A stretch of DNA of 37,182 nt from Syntrophobacterales bacterium (lineage in GTDB: Bacteria; Desulfobacterota; Syntrophia; Syntrophales; UBA5619), in contig JAHYJE010000031.1 in assembly GCA_019429105.1 (NCBI GenBank), positions 1 to 37,182 on the forward strand, written 5' to 3'. Each line of letters begins with the position of its first letter. The stretch's first letter is position 1. The notes beneath the pieces are model-generated. The model was not told where the DNA came from and did not search any database. It saw nothing but the letters and a program-made list of their open reading frames with translations. This document shows positions 2,187-36,723 of this stretch, piece after piece. The translations under genes were made by a program, and so were the position numbers.

Positions 2187-5000
2187 ATGCTTGGATTGAA
2201 GCTTAGAGAAGAATTTCTCGGGGCGCACATGCCCGGAACTGCCATTTCACTGCGTACAAGCGACAACCAAGGCGCCGCACAGAAGTCGCCCGATTACATT
2301 CTGTCGATCACCTATCCAACGGCAGATGTCCAGACTGCCCTGATGGCAATCAGCAAGAAACGCAGTGGTTGCCCCATCGTTTTGATGGGAGATCGTGGAC
2401 GCGGCAAGTCGCACATCATGGCCGTCATGCACCATGCCATCCAGTCTCCTGATATAGTCGAGAATTGGCTCAAAGATTGGAGCGCAAGAAGTGGCAGTGA
2501 TGAGCTCAAGTCTTTTGAGATGGTCAAGGGATACGTCCCTATTTCCGAACCAGTCCATAATCACGAATATCCAATGCTTTGGGATCTGCTGTTCGACAGG
2601 CATCCGAAAGGCGAATACTATCGCGGCCAGTTTGAAAGCATGACTCAACCGTTTCCGCCTCGAACACTCCTGGAAAAGATGTTTGTTGATAATCCAACTT
2701 GTTTGATTCTGGATGAATTCCAAACCTGGTATACCGGCCTGCCCGACAAAGACCCCAAGACGGGCCTGCTTGTCAAGCAGTATGCCTGCAACTTTGTTCA
2801 AATTCTTTCAGAGATAGCAAAAGATCGCCCGGAAATTCTTATTTTCGTCATTTCGGTCTTCAATAACCAGAACGACGCATTTCAGCAAGTCCACCGGCAA
2901 GGACCGGTTGTCATTGATTTTCGGGGGCCTTCTGCCAAACAGGACCGCCAGAAGCTTCTCCTGCATCGCCTGTTTGAGAATCGTCGCAACATTCCTGCTG
3001 CCGATATCACCAATACGGCTGGAGCCTATGCGGGTGAAAGATTCCGGTTGCTACACACCAATGAATCTGATGCAGAAAAGGAACGTGTTCACCGTGAGGT
3101 TTTTTCCTGCTGGCCTTTTAGCCCTGAGCTGCTTGACCTTCTCGAAGATCACATCCTGCTTTCATCGGCAGCACAGGAAACGCGGGATCTTATACGCATA
3201 CTGGCACAGGTATTTCGTTCCCGTGGTGATTTGGTTCCTGTTATTACGCCGTCAGATTTCTTTGTTGATGGAGAATCCGACGAGGTTCAGACCCTTGTTG
3301 ACTCGATAGCTGTTCAGGCGGGGCAGGAAAAACTGCGGCAGATTGCCCAGCATAATCTTGAAGCCGTTCGTGACTCTGGGGCTCTCGTCCCAAATGCGCG
3401 TGAGATAGTGAGCGCCATCTGGATGCGCTCCATGTCTCCCGGGAAAAATGTCGGCGGCACTCCGGCGGCGCTGCACCTGGATATTACCAGAGAGATTGCT
3501 GTTGACGACAACGCATTTCAGGCGGAGTTGGCGTTGCTTATCGAAAACAGCGTCAACATCCATGGCGATGAGGTGCCAGGCGGCCCTCTATGGTTTGGGG
3601 TCAACGAAAATCCGCGGTCAAAGGTCCGTGCCTGCGCAAAGAATAATAAGCTCTGGCATATCGGCGCTGTCCCTACGGCGGGTCAGACGGTTTACCCCGG
3701 AAAGGATATCTCCCATATTCGCAAGACGCTGCGGCACATTTTTGTTTCTGAAACAACGCAACCTCCATCTCGCGTAATTATTCTCGGTCCTCACTGGAAG
3801 GATGATCCTTGGAATGACATGGATGATATTGACAAGCCTTCTAAATGGGATAGGCCGGTTCTTCTGGTGATCCCTGATCTGATTGACGGCGGTCAGGCTG
3901 GTCTCAATTCCTGCCTCGGCGTGTGGCTGGCCAAGCATGTCCAGAAGCGACGCAACACGATCCGCTTCCTGCTTTCAGCGAGCGATACGCCAGGTCTTTA
4001 TACTGACGACGAGCTCATCTATTCCTCTCGTTGCAGTTACCTCTGCTCACCCGAGGGATGGGGTTCCGACATGACCTATAAGGCATTGCACCAGGATTTT
4101 GACCGGCCTCTTCGTCAATCCCTGAAATCGCGCTTTAACCGGTTTGCGATCCTGCGCAAATGGAATTTCCAGCAACCACAAGACTGCGTGTTTGAGGTCG
4201 AGAAGATTTCTGAACAAGGCGGAGATATCCCAGCGGCTGTCGAAGCAAAAATCTTATCGGCTCTCTTTGACCAAACTGAATTCAAGAAATTCGTACTCAA
4301 GCGGGCCAAGGATTCTGATTTTGTAGGTTCCTTGATGGACGATCTGACCGAGCCCCCTCCTCCTAACACAGGCGAAGCGATCCCCTTCCTGGGGGAAATA
4401 AAGATCTATGAATTCATAATGGATATTGTGGCCAAGGGCGAGCTTGTCCTTAATGTGAGCGGTGCCTGGATCGGGCGGCGGGCAGAAGATGCAACCGACG
4501 AAGATGCCCTGCGCCATATCAAATCAAAAGCGTTTCGCACCGGTCAAGAGATGCGGCAGATACAGCTCGGGCTTCCCGGCGCCGTTGGCGGTGGAACTAT
4601 TACTGGCCCGAAAGACCCCGTAGGTGGTAATCGTCCAGGGGGGGTAAAAGAGGTTGGGCCAGGAATCACGTCGGGACCAGAGAAGACAGGGGGCGGAGAT
4701 CAAGGGGCCGACCCTACGGCAGGCGGGGAACCCATAAGTGGAAACGGTGAGACAGGAGGGATCACGCCACCCCTAGTGCCGCCGGTAATCAAGAGCAGAA
4801 AATCCGAGGAGTCCGCGACAGGCATAAACCTTTCGGGGTGTTTTGAAAAATGGGGCGTTTCTTCCAGCCAGCCTATTGAAAGCGCACGAATCGAGTTCTC
4901 CGGATTAACGGCTCAGCAGATAAAACAAATCCTGCTGCATATTCCATCCACCTTCAAGGCGACCCTGGAGATTGACTACCAGGATGGGGGTGAGGAATGA
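2187..5000 (+). CDS. DUF499 (COG1483)-type AAA+ ATPase, first gene of BREX/Pgl-like defence operon
   Basis: This 937-aa P-loop ATPase has a Walker A motif GDRGRGKSH at about residues 68-76 and a Walker B strand LILDEF at about 173-178, in the DUF499/COG1483 style. The family co-occurs with DNA methyltransferases in defence islands and is probably the functional counterpart of BREX BrxC/PglY. Residues about 798-865 form a Gly/Pro-rich low-complexity linker that separates the ATPase body from a small C-terminal domain (about 880-937). ATG 2187 is preceded by an ideal AGGAG at 2176-2180 (6-nt spacing); an in-frame TTG at 2160 lacks this. The stop overlaps the next start as ATGA. Domain assignment is from motif and gene context; the defence role is inferred. 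Confidence 0.85.
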   Translation: MLGLKLREEFLGAHMPGTAISLRTSDNQGAAQKSPDYILSITYPTADVQTALMAISKKRSGCPIVLMGDRGRGKSHIMAVMHHAIQSPDIVENWLKDWSARSGSDELKSFEMVKGYVPISEPVHNHEYPMLWDLLFDRHPKGEYYRGQFESMTQPFPPRTLLEKMFVDNPTCLILDEFQTWYTGLPDKDPKTGLLVKQYACNFVQILSEIAKDRPEILIFVISVFNNQNDAFQQVHRQGPVVIDFRGPSAKQDRQKLLLHRLFENRRNIPAADITNTAGAYAGERFRLLHTNESDAEKERVHREVFSCWPFSPELLDLLEDHILLSSAAQETRDLIRILAQVFRSRGDLVPVITPSDFFVDGESDEVQTLVDSIAVQAGQEKLRQIAQHNLEAVRDSGALVPNAREIVSAIWMRSMSPGKNVGGTPAALHLDITREIAVDDNAFQAELALLIENSVNIHGDEVPGGPLWFGVNENPRSKVRACAKNNKLWHIGAVPTAGQTVYPGKDISHIRKTLRHIFVSETTQPPSRVIILGPHWKDDPWNDMDDIDKPSKWDRPVLLVIPDLIDGGQAGLNSCLGVWLAKHVQKRRNTIRFLLSASDTPGLYTDDELIYSSRCSYLCSPEGWGSDMTYKALHQDFDRPLRQSLKSRFNRFAILRKWNFQQPQDCVFEVEKISEQGGDIPAAVEAKILSALFDQTEFKKFVLKRAKDSDFVGSLMDDLTEPPPPNTGEAIPFLGEIKIYEFIMDIVAKGELVLNVSGAWIGRRAEDATDEDALRHIKSKAFRTGQEMRQIQLGLPGAVGGGTITGPKDPVGGNRPGGVKEVGPGITSGPEKTGGGDQGADPTAGGEPISGNGETGGITPPLVPPVIKSRKSEESATGINLSGCFEKWGVSSSQPIESARIEFSGLTAQQIKQILLHIPSTFKATLEIDYQDGGEE

Positions 5001-5950
5001 GCACGGACTGGACCGGCATTATTCTAAACTCTAAGTCACCCGCCACCACCTGGGCGGAAATTTTTTCAGCTCTTCTGAGCATGGCCAGGGAGAGTTCATC
5101 GCCCGTTGCCCTTCATGATGCAACCGTCATGCCCGACCGATTGCTGACCGAGGCCGCCTGGGAGCTGTGGGAGGCTTTCCCGGAATCTGTGATCAAAACT
5201 TCCACCACCCTGAAAGATTGGACAAACCAGAGTTCAGGCAAGGCGGTTCTGATCCTTGACGCCCTTTCTCTCCGGGAACTGCCCCTCCTGCTGGGAGCGG
5301 CGGCAGCCAGAGACATTCAACCACTTCATGTCAAAATCACCGGGTCGGAATGCCCCTCAACCACCGATTACTTCGCCAAGGCGATCGGGTTGCCTTCGAG
5401 AAGCGCTTTGGCCAATGACGGAAAGCCGGGTACTTTTACTCTGTTTGGAGGCAATTGTTATACCGACGTTGTCAGCCTGCCGTTCGAGGATTGCGCGGTG
5501 CCACCGACACCCAACATCGTCATCTGGCATTCCTGGCTCGATGACCTGATTCACCTGCAACATAAACTTCCCGACCAGATCGCCGGCATTGCATCAAGTG
5601 TTCTGCAGGGGGATGGATTCTGGAACTTTCTCAATAAATTACGACAGGGCCGCAGTCTGGTCATTACCTCCGACCACGGCTATGCGGTGAGCAAGCGCTT
5701 CTCTTCCGAAGTGGAAGACCCGGAGGCTATTGAGATTTTGAGAAATACTTTCGGCGCGTCCCGCAACAAGGCCGTTTCAGAGCCGTGGCAGAAACGATTC
5801 ATGCCGCCCATCGTTATGTCCTACAACAATCAACACGTTGTCATGGGACAGCGGAAATGGAAAGTCCAGGGCGGCTTTCCGCACGTCTGTCATGGTGGAA
5901 TGAGCCTTCTGGAAGTCGCCGTGCCTTACCTGGAGTTGCCGGCGCTATGA
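4997..5950 (+). CDS. Compact PglZ-like protein (alkaline phosphatase fold)
   Basis: This 317-aa protein carries the PglZ/alkaline-phosphatase metal-binding pattern in order: LILDALS (D88, candidate nucleophile S91), VIWHSWLDD (D182/D183), LVITSDHGY (D226, H227) and HVCHGGMSLLEVAVP (H299). PglZ is the signature protein of BREX and Pgl phage-defence systems and is thought to act as a phosphohydrolase or structural core. Typical PglZ proteins are 600-900 aa, so this one is reduced to little more than the catalytic domain. It overlaps both neighbours by ATGA junctions (4997-5000 and 5947-5950), implying translational coupling in one operon. Catalytic residues are inferred by pattern, not by alignment. 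Confidence 0.85.
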   Translation: MSTDWTGIILNSKSPATTWAEIFSALLSMARESSSPVALHDATVMPDRLLTEAAWELWEAFPESVIKTSTTLKDWTNQSSGKAVLILDALSLRELPLLLGAAAARDIQPLHVKITGSECPSTTDYFAKAIGLPSRSALANDGKPGTFTLFGGNCYTDVVSLPFEDCAVPPTPNIVIWHSWLDDLIHLQHKLPDQIAGIASSVLQGDGFWNFLNKLRQGRSLVITSDHGYAVSKRFSSEVEDPEAIEILRNTFGASRNKAVSEPWQKRFMPPIVMSYNNQHVVMGQRKWKVQGGFPHVCHGGMSLLEVAVPYLELPAL

Positions 5951-9612: not shown

Positions 9613-9623
9613 CGAGGTGTATG

Positions 9624-10811
9624 ATGAAAATTGAATCGATCCGCTTGAAGAATTTCAAATCCTTTAAAGACGCGGAACTCTCGGCATTACCGGAGCTCTG
9701 CATCATTGTAGGGGCAAACGGCGCCGGCAAGAGCACTATTTTCAGTGTTTTCGGTTTCTTGCGCGATGCAATGAATAGCAATGTCAACGCGGCGCTGGCC
9801 AGATTAGGAGGGAGCCGTGGCTTCAAAGAAGTGCGCAGCAGAAATTCGCAGGGGCCGATCGAAATCGAATTAAAATTTCGCGTCAAACAAGATAGTCCGC
9901 TTACGACCTATTTCCTGCAGATAAACGAAAAACAGGGCAAAGCTCAAGTTGAACGGGAGATTCTGAAATACCGTCGTGGCAGCAGCGGTCAGCCTTGGCA
10001 TTTTCTGGATTTTTCCAAGGGAAAGGGAACTGCCGTCACCAATGAACTGGATTCCGTAACAGACGTCAAGGATTTAAACCGTGAGGAGCAGACCCTGAAA
10101 TCACCGGATATCCTCGCCATCAAGGGATTAGCTCAGTTTGAACGCTTTCCGGCCGTGATGGCGCTCGGCGATCTTATTGAAAACTGGCATATTTCGGGTT
10201 TTCATATCAGCAAGGCCCGGCCTGAGCAGGAGGCCGGATATGCAGAACATCTTTCCCGGGAAGGTGAAAATCTTTCGTTGGTGATCGAGTATCTGTACAA
10301 CCATGCCAGACCCACATTTGAAAAGATACTTTCGCTCTTAAAGATGCGCGTACCCGGAATCTCTCAGATCGAGTCCAAAACCACCGAAGAAGGGCGCGTT
10401 CTTTTGAAATTCCAGGACGGTTCGTTCGAAGACCCATTTCTCGCCCGCTATGTCTCAGACGGCACCATCAAGATGCTCGCCTACCTCACTCTGCTTTATG
10501 ATCCAACCCCCCATCCGCTGCTATGCGTTGAAGAACCCGAAAACCAGCTTTATCCGAAGCTCCTGTGGGAACTGGCCGAGGAATTCCGCGCCTATGCCAA
10601 CCGCGGCGGCCAGGTTTTTGTATCCACCCATTCACCAGATTTTCTGAATGCGGCGCGGCTTGACGAGGTGTTCTGGCTGGTGAAAAAGGACGGCTACACG
10701 CAGGTCTGCCGCGCAAAAGATGATGAACAGCTTGCCGCGTATATGGCGCAAGGCGACCAGATGGGTTATCTCTGGGAACAGGGTTTTTTTGAAGGAGCCG
10801 ACCCGCGATGA
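9624..10811 (+). CDS. RecF/OLD-type AAA ATPase (AAA_21/AAA_15)
   Basis: This 395-aa ABC-type ATPase has a full motif set: Walker A GANGAGKST (residues 30-38), a SDGT signature-like stretch in the C-terminal half, Walker B LLCVEEPEN (E303/E304) and the switch histidine in STHSPDF (H336). Proteins of this shape partner TOPRIM nucleases in OLD-like and other defence systems. The next gene overlaps by ATGA and encodes a TOPRIM-like DUF4276 protein, so the pair probably forms a split ATPase-nuclease effector. ATG 9624 sits 6 nt from GAGG at 9614-9617; ATG 9621 directly before it is an alternative start. The gene lies 11 nt after the methylase. Confidence 0.88.
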   Translation: MKIESIRLKNFKSFKDAELSALPELCIIVGANGAGKSTIFSVFGFLRDAMNSNVNAALARLGGSRGFKEVRSRNSQGPIEIELKFRVKQDSPLTTYFLQINEKQGKAQVEREILKYRRGSSGQPWHFLDFSKGKGTAVTNELDSVTDVKDLNREEQTLKSPDILAIKGLAQFERFPAVMALGDLIENWHISGFHISKARPEQEAGYAEHLSREGENLSLVIEYLYNHARPTFEKILSLLKMRVPGISQIESKTTEEGRVLLKFQDGSFEDPFLARYVSDGTIKMLAYLTLLYDPTPHPLLCVEEPENQLYPKLLWELAEEFRAYANRGGQVFVSTHSPDFLNAARLDEVFWLVKKDGYTQVCRAKDDEQLAAYMAQGDQMGYLWEQGFFEGADPR

Positions 10812-11365
10812 AGACCATTGTCTTTTTTCTCGAAGAACCGTCGGCGAAAGAGATGCTCGCAGGAGTTCTGCCACGCATTCTCCCCGAAAACTTTCAGATT
10901 CGGTACATTGTGTTTCGGGGGAAGCAGGATCTGGAAAAAAATCTTCAGAAGAAGCTGCGCGGATGGAGAATGCCGGAATCCGTTTTTGTGGTAATGCGCG
11001 ATCAGGATTCGGGGGATTGCAAAGCGGTTAAATCCAGGTTAGCTGATCTCTGCGGCGAGGCAGGTCGAGAAGATATATTGGTTCGTGTGGCCTGTCGGGA
11101 ATTGGAGAGCTTTTATCTGGGCGATCTGGCGGCAGTGGAGCAAGGGCTTGGTGTCAGAGGCATTAAGGCGCAGCAGCTCGGGAGGAAGTTCCGGAATCCG
11201 GATGCGCTGGGCAACCCGGCGGAGGAACTCCGTAATTTGACCAGCAGTGCGTATGATAAAGTTGCCGGCTCTCGCGCTATCGCACCTTACCTGACGTTAG
11301 AGGGCAACCTCTCCCGGAGTTTCAATGTGCTCCTCTCGGGAATTAGAAATCTTGTGGAGATATAA
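10808..11365 (+). CDS. DUF4276 / TOPRIM-like protein
   Basis: This 185-aa protein has a TOPRIM-like acidic pattern: FFLEEPSAKEML near the N-terminus (E9/E10), then VVMRDQDSGDC (D65, D67), then CRELESFYLGD (E98/E100). This matches DUF4276, a family commonly encoded directly after AAA_21-type ATPases. The TOPRIM core binds divalent metal and in OLD and related enzymes cleaves DNA. The ATGA overlap with the ATPase gene argues that the two products act as a complex. Nuclease activity is inferred from the fold pattern; DUF4276 has no well-established reaction. Confidence 0.82.
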   Translation: MKTIVFFLEEPSAKEMLAGVLPRILPENFQIRYIVFRGKQDLEKNLQKKLRGWRMPESVFVVMRDQDSGDCKAVKSRLADLCGEAGREDILVRVACRELESFYLGDLAAVEQGLGVRGIKAQQLGRKFRNPDALGNPAEELRNLTSSAYDKVAGSRAIAPYLTLEGNLSRSFNVLLSGIRNLVEI

Positions 11366-11367
11366 AA

Positions 11368-11868
11368 ATGGACACCCTATCGAACAACGTCTGGCAGCGT
11401 AGAGGGTCTTGCGTCGTCTTTGATAAGACGAGTCTGGGGCCGTTCATCTCCGCTGGCGCTGCCATTTCCTTGAGGCAGGCGCTATCCTGGTCACAGGGAC
11501 TACCGGCCAATCCTCCCGTGCCTGGACGCACAATCCTTGTATCGGGTTTGGAGACGATAATCGAGACATTGGAACCGCAGGAGGCTGAAGAGTTTCTTAG
11601 AGGTCGCATCCGACCGTTACTGAAAGCGATTCAGGAAAAATGGACTGAATGCGGATTAGTCTTCGGATTCGCTTCACACCCCAGGGCCTTCGAGGAAACC
11701 GCGCTGGAAGAGGAGGTCCTGTTTCGCCGCCGCGACCGCAAGACGGTGCGTCTGTCCGAGGGGCTCTGGGATGGAAGCGCCACAATGAACATGAAACGTC
11801 TAATCCGGGATGGATTGCAATCTAACGAAGGAACAGTAGTCGGCTATCATGTTATCCATATCTCCTGA
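11368..11868 (+). CDS. Hypothetical protein in defence operon
   Basis: This 166-aa protein was not recognised. It begins MDTLSNNVWQRRGSC, has a hydrophobic strand RTILVSGLETIIETL (about residues 55-69) followed by a charged helix, and a basic stretch RRRDRKTVRLSE near residue 120. The strand-helix pattern recalls a Walker-B-containing core, but no P-loop is visible, so any kinship to BREX BrxF (a small P-loop protein of type 3 systems) is only a guess. The gene starts 2 nt after DUF4276 and its 3' end overlaps the helicase gene by 20 nt. This tight embedding suggests a required subunit of the operon. Confidence 0.75.
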   Translation: MDTLSNNVWQRRGSCVVFDKTSLGPFISAGAAISLRQALSWSQGLPANPPVPGRTILVSGLETIIETLEPQEAEEFLRGRIRPLLKAIQEKWTECGLVFGFASHPRAFEETALEEEVLFRRRDRKTVRLSEGLWDGSATMNMKRLIRDGLQSNEGTVVGYHVIHIS

Positions 11869-14638
11869 GATTCAGCCCGGCCTTAAGGTCAGTCATGTCG
11901 AGCTGGGGGACGGCGTTGTCGTCGGCCGCGAGCCGACCGGCTATATCACGGTCTTTTTCCGCAGCTTTGGTGAACGGCAGGTTCCGGCTGATTCTCTCCG
12001 CCCGGCAGCAGATCGCTTTGACCAGATTGTGCAGAGCATGATTCCGGCCTCAGCAGACCGGCTGGAAAGGCTCTGGCTCGCTGTCGAAGCTGAAGAAATC
12101 CCCCTGATGGAAAGCGCGGCGACACTGACCTCCGCGAAGGTCGATCTTTTACCGCACCAGGTTGTTCTCGTACATCGGGTGGCCAACGCCCGGCCGAAAC
12201 GTTTTCTGATTGCCGATGAGGTAGGTCTCGGGAAAACCATTGAAGCCGCTCTCATCCTCCGGGAATTGGCATCCCGCGGTGAGCTGCAGCGGGCCATCAT
12301 GATTGTCCCCGCTGGTTTAGTAGAAAACTGGCGCAGGGAGCTGAATGATGTCTTCAACCTTGATTTTGAAGTGTTCGGCAGTGAAGGCGATGTAACAGAC
12401 CGTAAGTCAAACGCCTTTGCCAAGCACAACCGGTTAATTGCCTCTGTGGATACCCTCAAGCGCCCGACAAGGGTAAAAAAACTTCTCGCTGCGCCGCCTT
12501 GGGATCTGGTGGTCTTCGATGAAGCCCATCACCTCAGTGTCTATCGTAACGGCAACAAGGTGAAGAAGACGGAAAACTTCAAGCTTGTCGAGGCAATCCG
12601 CGACCATTGCCGAGATCTGCTTTTTCTGTCCGCCACGCCCCACCAGGGAGATCACTTTCGCTTTTGGATGTTAATAAATCTTCTTGATCCTACATTGTTT
12701 GAAGATAGCTCGGATATGCTCGATAATCGCCATCGCCTTAATGCGGTAGTAATCCGGCGCACCAAAGCCGACGCCTGCGCCCAAGACGGCAGCCCGTTGT
12801 TTCTCCGGCGCATGGTGCATACCGAAGGATTCAGCCTTTCGGATAAGGAGATGGATTTCTATAACGCGCTCCTTGACTATCTGCGGGATGGATACAACCT
12901 TGCTGCTCAGCAGGGGAACAAAGGGCGTGCCCTGGGATTTGTCATGAGCGTTTTCCAGAAGATCGCTGCCAGCAGCTTTGCCGCCATACGCTCTACCCTG
13001 CAACGCCGGTTGCTGATGCTGACTATTCAAGAGGGTACAGAGCTCGACGAACTTCTGGATGTCGATGGCCGGAACCGGGTCTTTGAGGAAGCAAGAAAGA
13101 TCATCCACGGTATCTATTCGCTTCCCTTTGACTCCGTAGGAAATGCTCAAACAGACCAGATTCTGGCTGATGCGAAATTCCAACTACTCAAGAAGCGAAA
13201 TGAAGCACGTACGTTCGTTACGACAGCCGAGAGCTTTTCGGATTCGGAATATGAAGCGGACGTCGGAGAAGATTCGGCAGCCCTGCTTGTCGCCATTGCG
13301 TTGCCGGAGGAACGGCAGCGGATTCTTGCGCTTCTGGCCCGGTTCCCCGAAGGAATAGAATCCAAGACAGCCATGCTTATCCATGCCTTACGACAGATAT
13401 GGCAGCAGAATCCCGATGAGAGGGTCGTTATCTTCGCCACCTACCTCGGCACGGTAGCGGCCATCAAGATGCAAGTAGCCGCGGCCTTCCCCGGCAAGGG
13501 CGTGGATGTTCTCAAGGGTGGCGATCATGGTGCCAAAACCGCCGTTCAAAAGCGATTCCGGCGCAAAGACGGACCAAAAGTTCTGGTCTGTACGGCAGCC
13601 GGGCGTGAGGGGATTAACCTTCAGTTTGCAAGAATCCTTTTCAATTATGACCTGCCTTGGAACCCGATGGATCTGGAGCAACGTATTGGCCGAATACATC
13701 GCTATGGGCAGGAATCCACAGCCCAGATATATAACCTCGTCGCAACCGACACGATTGAGGGGAAGATCTACCTGCTTCTTGAAGAAAAGCTGGGCGAGAT
13801 TGCGCATACGCTGGGCAAAGTAGATGAGCAGGGCCAGATTGCCGAGGACCTCAGAACGCAGGTTTTGGGTCAGCTAAGTAGCTGCCTCAGTTATGACCGG
13901 CTGTATCAGGATGCTCTGAGCGATCCCACATTAAGAAGAACTCGGCAGGAACTTGAGGTCGCCATGTCGAATGCCGACTTGGCTCGCCAGGTTGTCTTCG
14001 AGCTTTTCCAGGTTTTGGATCGCTTCAACCTCGGCGACTACGAAAAATACGATGATCAGGGACGTGGCATGCAGCGACTGGTTGGTTTTGTGTCCAGATC
14101 AGCCAGGCTCTCAGACTGGGTTTTCCACAAAGAAGACGAAACCAGTTGGAAATTGTCCCACAATGGTGAACCAGCAATCTTTTTTACAACAGACCGTGAC
14201 CGGGCCTTGCAAGATGAGAACCTCCAGCTTCTGGGCTTGGAGCATCCCATCGTCAGCAAGATGCTGCGCCGGCATACCACGTCTGATTCAGCTCCTCGTG
14301 CTCTTGCCGGGAAAGCAAGTGGGCTCGCCGGTGGTGGTTTGCTCACGATCTGGAAAATCAACACCCAAGGGAAGGATGGTCAGGCAAGCCATCACATCGT
14401 CAGAATCGGCATGACCGCAGCAGGCGACCGCGCCCCCTGGCTTGAACGCCTGGAATACGATCTCCTGGGAATGGATGCTCCGACATCAAAGATGCCTGAT
14501 GAATGGCAAAGGCTTGCCACGAACAGGAGGCAGCGGCTACAGGAGCTACTGCATAGAGAGCTAAGCTATTCAGGGATCATCAACGAAGAAATGTCCTACT
14601 CGGCCGTTCCGCTGGTAATACTGGGGATTGAAATGTAA
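11849..14638 (+). CDS. SNF2-family (COG0553) helicase/translocase
   Basis: This 929-aa superfamily 2 ATPase has motif I DEVGLGKT (residues 123-130), motif II DEAH (224-227), motif III FLSATPHQGD and motif VI QRIGRIHRYGQ (611-621). The first 50 residues, with SHVELGDGVVVGREPTGYITVFF, resemble a small SH3/CarD-like domain seen in related DrmD/BrxHII-type helicases. It probably translocates on duplex DNA as the motor of the defence complex. It is the last gene of the operon; the following 160 nt contain a separate promoter. Its start overlaps the preceding gene by 20 nt and has only a weak ribosome-binding site, so coupling is likely. ATPase assignment is firm; the partnership is inferred. Confidence 0.9.
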   Translation: MLSISPEIQPGLKVSHVELGDGVVVGREPTGYITVFFRSFGERQVPADSLRPAADRFDQIVQSMIPASADRLERLWLAVEAEEIPLMESAATLTSAKVDLLPHQVVLVHRVANARPKRFLIADEVGLGKTIEAALILRELASRGELQRAIMIVPAGLVENWRRELNDVFNLDFEVFGSEGDVTDRKSNAFAKHNRLIASVDTLKRPTRVKKLLAAPPWDLVVFDEAHHLSVYRNGNKVKKTENFKLVEAIRDHCRDLLFLSATPHQGDHFRFWMLINLLDPTLFEDSSDMLDNRHRLNAVVIRRTKADACAQDGSPLFLRRMVHTEGFSLSDKEMDFYNALLDYLRDGYNLAAQQGNKGRALGFVMSVFQKIAASSFAAIRSTLQRRLLMLTIQEGTELDELLDVDGRNRVFEEARKIIHGIYSLPFDSVGNAQTDQILADAKFQLLKKRNEARTFVTTAESFSDSEYEADVGEDSAALLVAIALPEERQRILALLARFPEGIESKTAMLIHALRQIWQQNPDERVVIFATYLGTVAAIKMQVAAAFPGKGVDVLKGGDHGAKTAVQKRFRRKDGPKVLVCTAAGREGINLQFARILFNYDLPWNPMDLEQRIGRIHRYGQESTAQIYNLVATDTIEGKIYLLLEEKLGEIAHTLGKVDEQGQIAEDLRTQVLGQLSSCLSYDRLYQDALSDPTLRRTRQELEVAMSNADLARQVVFELFQVLDRFNLGDYEKYDDQGRGMQRLVGFVSRSARLSDWVFHKEDETSWKLSHNGEPAIFFTTDRDRALQDENLQLLGLEHPIVSKMLRRHTTSDSAPRALAGKASGLAGGGLLTIWKINTQGKDGQASHHIVRIGMTAAGDRAPWLERLEYDLLGMDAPTSKMPDEWQRLATNRRQRLQELLHRELSYSGIINEEMSYSAVPLVILGIEM

Positions 14639-35350: not shown

Positions 35351-36169
35351 CCCCGTTTTCCTTCCCAGCTCATTCTTCTCCAGCATCTGTACACACGACC
35401 TGAAAGCTCTCGCCTTGTCTTCCAGGGAGGTACGGCCATCCGCTGGTGTCACAACGGAGGCCGGTTTTCAGAGGACATCGATTTTGTTACGCATCTCGCG
35501 AGGCCCACGCTCGAAAGAATGATGCAGGCCATAGAGGCTCCGGTTGCCCGTGAGTCCATTGCCCATTTCGGGCTGGGCCGTCTTACGCTCGCCCCTCGTG
35601 CCCAACGGGATGAAGAGGTGGCCTGGCGGGTGGCTTTTGAACCGCTAAACTCCCGGGACAGGATTATGGTAAGGATTGAATGCGAGCGACTGCAGGAAGG
35701 GGTGACTCCGGAGTCTGAACCCCGGGTACTGGGAATGCAGCCTGCGGTATCCTACATGATCGCCAGCGGAGAGTTTCGCATTCCCCGCCCTAATTCGGTG
35801 ATGGTGGTCGAAACCCTTGAAGAGATTCTTTCCGATAAGGTTCGGGCTTTGCTGGAACGCTCCTATCTTAAGGGAGGGGACATCTACGACGTCTGGCATC
35901 TGCGGGAGCGACTGCATGTTCCGGTTGTCCGAGATGTGGTGGAGCGAAAGTTCTCCTGCTATGCGGCTCCGTTTATACTGAAGCGGACGCCCAGATGGTT
36001 TCAGAGCGCCGACAGCGATCTGCGGGATGCAATTGAGAATGATCTGGGGCGGTTTCTGTCGCCGGAGGTCATGACGGCCTGCCGCAACGATGGCTATCGC
36101 CCGTTTCTGGATGCAGTGAAGGGGCTTTTCCGCGATCTGCGGGAAACGGGCGTGGTGATCCCGCCATGA
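35341..36169 (+). pseudogene. AbiEii-type nucleotidyltransferase toxin, 5' frameshifted
   Basis: From 35351 to the stop the frame is open and encodes RPESSRLVFQGGTAIRW, then GRFSEDIDFVTHL, the GGT and SEDIDF nucleotidyltransferase motifs of AbiEii/AbiGii toxins, followed by the family C-terminal domain. Those motifs lie upstream of the first ATG in this frame (35519), so a start there would remove the active site. The likely original start is ATG 35341 with GGG at 35331-35333, but it is in another frame and stops after 20 codons; one extra base near the run at 35351-35360 would explain this. The stop overlaps the antitoxin start by ATGA. It is probably inactive unless the frameshift is a sequencing error. 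Confidence 0.7.
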
Positions 36170-36723
36170 GTACCATTGATATTCTCCAGGCTCTTCCTGT
36201 CCTCTTTCGCTCTGCCGATCTGCTAAAGTTTACCGGCAACGCCAATGTTTTTCTCACCCGTGCCCTGGAGCGCGGCTATATCACCCGGGTGACCCGTGGC
36301 GTGTATGTCAACAGCCGTCTGAAAGCTGAACCGTCGCTGGAAGAAACGGCCTGTTTCGTACGCGCCCCTTCCTATATCAGCGCCGAGTGGGCTTTGCACA
36401 AGCACGGGGTGATCATTCAGGTTCCCACGGTTTGTACGGTTGTCACGCTCAGCACGGCTGTCGGCATTGCCCGTAATCTCCACTGGCGCGGAGTCTCCAT
36501 TGAGTACTCCCACATCTCCGATCGTCTCTATTTCGGTTTTGAAGCGCGGGATGGATTTAACCTTGCCATGCCGGAAAAGGCGCTGCTTGATTGCATCTAT
36601 TATCGCAAGGCGGCGCCGTTTGAAGATGAACTGGAGTTGGAGGGAGTTGATACGGGGCGTCTGCAAGAAATGGCGCAGTCGTTTCCTGTGAGAGTGCGGG
36701 AGATTGTTGGAAAGTTGTCGTGA
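36166..36723 (+). CDS. AbiEi-type antitoxin (DUF6088-like) transcriptional regulator
   Basis: This 185-aa protein has an N-terminal winged helix (LLKFTGNANVFLTRALERG, then TRVTRGVYV) and the AbiEi C-terminal layout with YISAEWALHKHGV and LAMPEKALLDCIYY. AbiEi antitoxins repress the operon and counter the AbiEii nucleotidyltransferase without binding it (type IV toxin-antitoxin). Here the antitoxin follows the toxin with an ATGA overlap, the reverse of the classical abiEi-abiEii order. It remains intact although the toxin gene seems broken. Confidence 0.78.
   Translation: MSTIDILQALPVLFRSADLLKFTGNANVFLTRALERGYITRVTRGVYVNSRLKAEPSLEETACFVRAPSYISAEWALHKHGVIIQVPTVCTVVTLSTAVGIARNLHWRGVSIEYSHISDRLYFGFEARDGFNLAMPEKALLDCIYYRKAAPFEDELELEGVDTGRLQEMAQSFPVRVREIVGKLS

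Follow-up and report, generated by a model that had tools for sequence, protein, structure and literature searches.

The operon that includes positions 4997 to 5950 of the window (the whole stretch of 37,182 nucleotides analysed here) fits, in its gene content, a Type-3 BREX-Related (BR) anti-phage system, and the product of that gene is very probably the intact, standalone PglZ of the system. A first-pass annotation described the protein as a PglZ reduced to its catalytic core. Its PglZ assignment agrees with the profile matches, hhalign and a structure model compared with PorX and BREX PglZ. The idea of a reduced or unusual PglZ is not supported, since all complete homologues of the clade are short and the form is already in the literature. 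Judged by these homologues, a short PglZ is what members of a known clade ordinarily have, and not a shrunken oddity.

Gene content of the operon

As described by Rakesh & Krishnan (NAR 2026), Type-3 BR systems occur in 569 taxa with PglZ as a standalone domain, and their definition includes a nuclease-less helicase. An iSTAND component is found in 82% of the systems, and in a subset the methylase has two zinc-finger motifs (PMC12839542). The features present in the window are a DUF499 ATPase, a DUF1156 methylase, a nuclease-less SNF2 helicase and a standalone PglZ with its active site intact (Table 1); both also have one small additional gene in their core. The window operon differs in carrying an embedded HEC-01 pair. 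The Hma system and Type-1 BR have a homologous helicase, methylase and ATPase, but in these a nuclease is linked to the helicase and there is no PglZ. Canonical BREX is recognized by a PglZ of ~600-900 aa with N-terminal domains and by BrxC (DUF6079), with which BREX PglZ pairs; in contrast, the window PglZ has 317 aa and pairs with DUF499, and the 937-aa ATPase has no Pfam match to DUF6079.

Table 1. Genes of the operon, with positions in the window.
Feature	Position	Strand	Basis or remark
DUF499-family AAA+ ATPase, 937 aa	2187..5000	+	Walker A GDRGRGKS, Walker B LILDE
Standalone PglZ domain protein, 317 aa, ATG start	4997..5950	+	sequence, profile and structure-model matches
DUF1156 N6-adenine DNA methyltransferase, 1221 aa	5947..9612	+	Pfam DUF1156 E 2.6e-6 (above cut-off), DPPF motif
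Cassette gene 1: AAA_21/SMC-like ATPase, HEC-01B	9621..10811	+	PADLOC E 5e-207
Cassette gene 2: DUF4276 protein (presumably Toprim-like), HEC-01A	10808..11365	+	PADLOC E 3e-84
Conserved 166-aa protein	11368..11868	+	positional counterpart of the Type-3 BR iSTAND component
SNF2/RapA-like helicase, 929 aa, HmaA/BrxH/DrmD-like	11849..14638	+	SNF2 + Helicase_C, weak RapA_C match

The direct Pfam match of the ATPase to DUF499 is weak (E 0.0079, below cut-off); along its whole length, the protein aligns at 38% identity with a plasmid protein that carries the DUF499 annotation. Its start is probably the ATG at 2187, and the TTG at 2160 chosen by the ORF caller is probably too early, because homologues begin at the ATG. 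The methylase is also homologous to annotated DUF1156 proteins and has four CxxC pairs that may form two 4C zinc fingers. The 166-aa protein has no match in Pfam, NCBIfam or PADLOC. It is a counterpart of iSTAND by position, and its hhalign comparison with BrxB (probability 0.9%, score 18.2 vs 10-16 for shuffled columns) is not significant. In the helicase no nuclease domain was found with Pfam, and no HKD motif.

Further genes were noticed outside the operon. A HigB-like toxin and HTH antitoxin pair is found upstream (244-926), and towards the right-hand end of the window an AbiEi-like regulator follows an AbiEii-like nucleotidyltransferase (35519-36723).

Identity, length and catalytic residues of the PglZ

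Searches with the single protein gave weak matches to PglZ in PADLOC (E 2e-4) and to BREX-3 PglZ in NCBIfam (E 0.001), and no match in Pfam, PF08665 included. A homologue of 23% identity in the same operon position matches PF08665 above the cut-off (E 3.2e-7). The profile of a 16-homologue alignment matches the solved Salmonella PglZ (1.6e-5) and PorX (2.6e-4), and hhalign against canonical PglZ domains of the same phylum gave E 8e-16 with a probability of 98.6.

A usable AF2 model was built from the 16-sequence alignment (pLDDT 74, pTM 0.81, with pLDDT <50 in region 285-300, which includes H299); an input of eight close homologues gave a pLDDT of only 37. The top matches of the model in Foldseek and VIA are all PorX and BREX PglZ. 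With PorX, Foldseek gave E 7e-10 and VIA Z 18.1; Z was 15.0 and 11.2 for BREX PglZ, and all of these matches span residues 1-316/317. The structural comparison proposed earlier, with PglZ and with alkaline phosphatases, gave Z 11-18 for PorX and BREX PglZ. The fold group that came next, NPP and alkaline phosphatases, reached about 8.6 at most, and no other family exceeded Z 9 in VIA, which is still compatible with more distant relations. The model aligns to residues 142-518 of PorX and 381-753 of BREX PglZ. Because the PorX range takes in the helical linker ahead of the PglZ domain, the product is predicted to be a PglZ made up essentially of that linker and the catalytic domain.

PorX (PDB 7pvk, 8thp) is a two-component response regulator. 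It has the whole-chain fold with the helical linker, the catalytic Thr and the C-terminal His in common with the 317-aa protein, which differs in having no CheY-like receiver domain and in its defence context; identity is 12-15%. BREX PglZ (PDB 9nv3, 9zn5) shares the catalytic domain and most ligand residues. It also has N-terminal P-loop/HTH domains and a C-terminal beta-sandwich, and the 317-aa PglZ is without both.

The length of the protein could be taken to mean that it is a remnant of a full-length BREX PglZ whose N-terminal half was lost. In the same phylum, the open frames with a PF08665 match above cut-off are 597-896 aa long, so that 317 aa is indeed about half the usual size, or less; the one exception, a 304-aa frame (G113), belongs to the DUF499-linked group. 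The homologues argue strongly against such a loss. Complete ones are all about 300-340 aa, down to 23% identity, and nearly all adjoin a DUF499 ATPase gene (one, L019, is called at 362 aa owing solely to an upstream start codon). They come from proteobacteria, Chlorobiaceae, plasmids and viral contigs. Full-length orthologues of 72-81% identity, found in Desulfobacterota-type bacteria, a Methylococcaceae bin and Chlorobiaceae, have 316-319 aa, and most share the 4-base overlap with DUF499. Six short homologues are from genomes of the window phylum (23-62% identity), and further ones are on plasmids and viral contigs (24-41%); a search of viral contigs with a narrow alignment gave no match. Collecting homologues next to DUF499, the check suggested with the first-pass annotation, therefore yielded short proteins wherever they were complete, and a truncated fragment of a longer PglZ was rejected as homologues of all distances are short.

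The gene itself also argues against truncation. Both junctions read ATGA, as previously noted for the 317-residue frame: upstream, the PglZ ATG at 4997 overlaps the TGA of the DUF499 gene (4998-5000), and downstream, the methylase ATG at 5947 overlaps the TGA of PglZ (5948-5950). Because the DUF499 gene overlaps the PglZ start, there is no room upstream for a lost half. Differences from the homologue in L003 at codon positions 1/2/3 are 0.18/0.07/0.51, with dN ~0.12 and dS >2. For five homologues, the difference is 51-59% at codon position 3 and 7-11% at position 2, with dN of 0.11-0.18 and saturated dS. From these codon-position differences and the low dN, the gene is judged to be kept by purifying selection, and this together with the full-length homologues at 72-81% identity makes it a real gene and not a chance frame. 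An intact PglZ is the reading retained, and we regard truncation as exceedingly improbable.

One homologous operon has a damaged form of the gene. In L009 (9989-12976), PglZ residues 1-168 are fused in frame to the methylase; an internal deletion, due to decay or an assembly error, has taken away the latter half of PglZ together with the beginning of the methylase.

The predicted catalytic set is D88, T123, D182, H186, D226, H227 and H299. As an alignment of 22 sequences (the window protein and 21 homologues) shows, D88, P120, T123, D182, D226, H227 and H299 are invariant. H186, four residues after D182, is found in 17 of the 22 and is absent from a more distant branch; among the longer PglZs of the phylum, one group also has the D-x-x-x-H spacing (VDKIMHG), which is missing from the type-1-like ones (IDATG). 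In the motif P120-S-x-T123, the threonine, a probable nucleophile, aligns to PorX T272 and Escherichia fergusonii PglZ T538. T123 and H299 correspond to the Thr and His positions mutated in E. fergusonii PglZ (PorX T272 and H500), where mutation led to loss of metal and activity (PMC12205998). All seven residues of the ligand list drawn up earlier sit where they were placed, and D88, D182, D226, H227 and H299 are among the invariant positions. The list needs correction in that D183 is variable among homologues, S91 is no known metal ligand, and T123 and H186 were omitted. S91 is invariant in the clade and looks like a clade signature (D-x-x-S-x-R-E), because canonical PglZ carries other residues at this position (DAMRYE, DGLALDQ).

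Since its catalytic residues are conserved, the 317-aa PglZ is probably an active enzyme. A protein inert in vivo, with a structural or regulatory part in the ATPase-methylase complex, would find a parallel in BREX PglZ, which forms stable complexes with its partners and whose nuclease activity is dispensable for methylation (PMC12205998). That the catalytic residues are strictly kept across 22 diverse sequences makes such a role quite improbable.

Extra genes at two junctions

HEC-01 is a PADLOC candidate system, and both window genes match it strongly. The pair (9621-11365) follows the methylase and precedes the 166-aa gene. The otherwise same operon in L004, L017, L018 and L033 is without it, so the pair behaves as an insertion and is best described, from this comparison, as an embedded extra cassette outside the PglZ system proper. 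HEC-01 is at the same junction in L002, L003, L005, L007 and L009, and in L029 the place is taken by a lipase-domain protein.

The junction between PglZ and methylase is also variable. It holds a DUF4365/PDC-M02 pair in L007, a PD-T4-4/PDC-M47-like pair in L017, Fic in L019 and L022, and SIR2 with HerA in the Klebsiella plasmid L032. In L006 an OLD-like ATPase comes directly after PglZ, and the contig ends soon after. The presence of different defence-type genes at two fixed junctions suggests that these are insertion hot spots in the homologous operons. That defence genes can lie embedded in other defence systems is well established (Payne et al., preprint, cited in PMC12255303).

The related operon of L032, with a PglZ 37% identical to the window protein, is present in 28 Klebsiella plasmid records and in a few from other enterobacteria. 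Most of these plasmids are typed as conjugative, and the PglZ of this operon is annotated merely 'hypothetical protein'.

Proposed function

Rakesh & Krishnan propose that PglZ is the nuclease effector of Type-3 BR (PMC12839542). Type-1 BREX PglZ nicks and cuts both dsDNA and ssDNA in a metal-dependent reaction that is inhibited by NTPs, and PorX cleaves cyclic and linear oligonucleotides (PMC12205998). By analogy, the window PglZ could be a metal-dependent nuclease or phosphodiesterase effector, a role for which belief and doubt are about balanced. The DUF1156 methylase would mark host DNA, and the DUF499 ATPase, the helicase and the small protein would form a complex that recognizes DNA and translocates along it. 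PglZ, a predicted two-metal phosphodiesterase of the alkaline-phosphatase/NPP fold, would be brought in to nick or cut invading DNA that lacks the modification. Because it is without the P-loop/HTH and beta-sandwich parts, it would have to rely on the partners for its targeting. We infer that this PglZ has activity, that it serves as the effector and that its partners direct it to the target. The Type-3 BR reading as a whole, with this working, is considered likely.

Enzymes related by the NPP fold hydrolyse small nucleotides. An active PglZ with a soluble nucleotide as its main substrate, either an oligonucleotide signal or an NTP, would be a signal-degrading or nucleotide-depleting enzyme. 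These NPP-fold relatives are consistent with such a substrate, as are the cleavage of oligonucleotides by PorX, the closest solved fold, the lack of the extra domains of BREX PglZ, and the inhibition of BREX PglZ nuclease activity by NTPs. However, type-1 BREX PglZ cuts DNA in both forms, and Type-3 BR operons have no other dedicated nuclease, which makes PglZ the best candidate for the cutter. A soluble nucleotide substrate is rather unlikely on this balance, and DNA cutting is the preferred reading.

Much more tentatively, the core-only PglZ may be the one nuclease that the core operon has, with the DUF499 ATPase and the helicase doing all of its aiming, and may be linked to back-up cassettes that can replace one another. 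These (HEC-01, SIR2-HerA, PD-T4-4-like, Fic and others at the two junctions) would act when restriction by PglZ fails, an arrangement that we think doubtful.

The earlier observation is confirmed, the identity of the enzyme is very probably right, and a DNA-cutting effector is the best guess for its function. Since proteins and operons of this kind have been described before, what is gained is more practical than conceptual: at its size, a standalone PglZ like this one is convenient for asking what the PglZ domain does apart from the extra domains of BREX PglZ.
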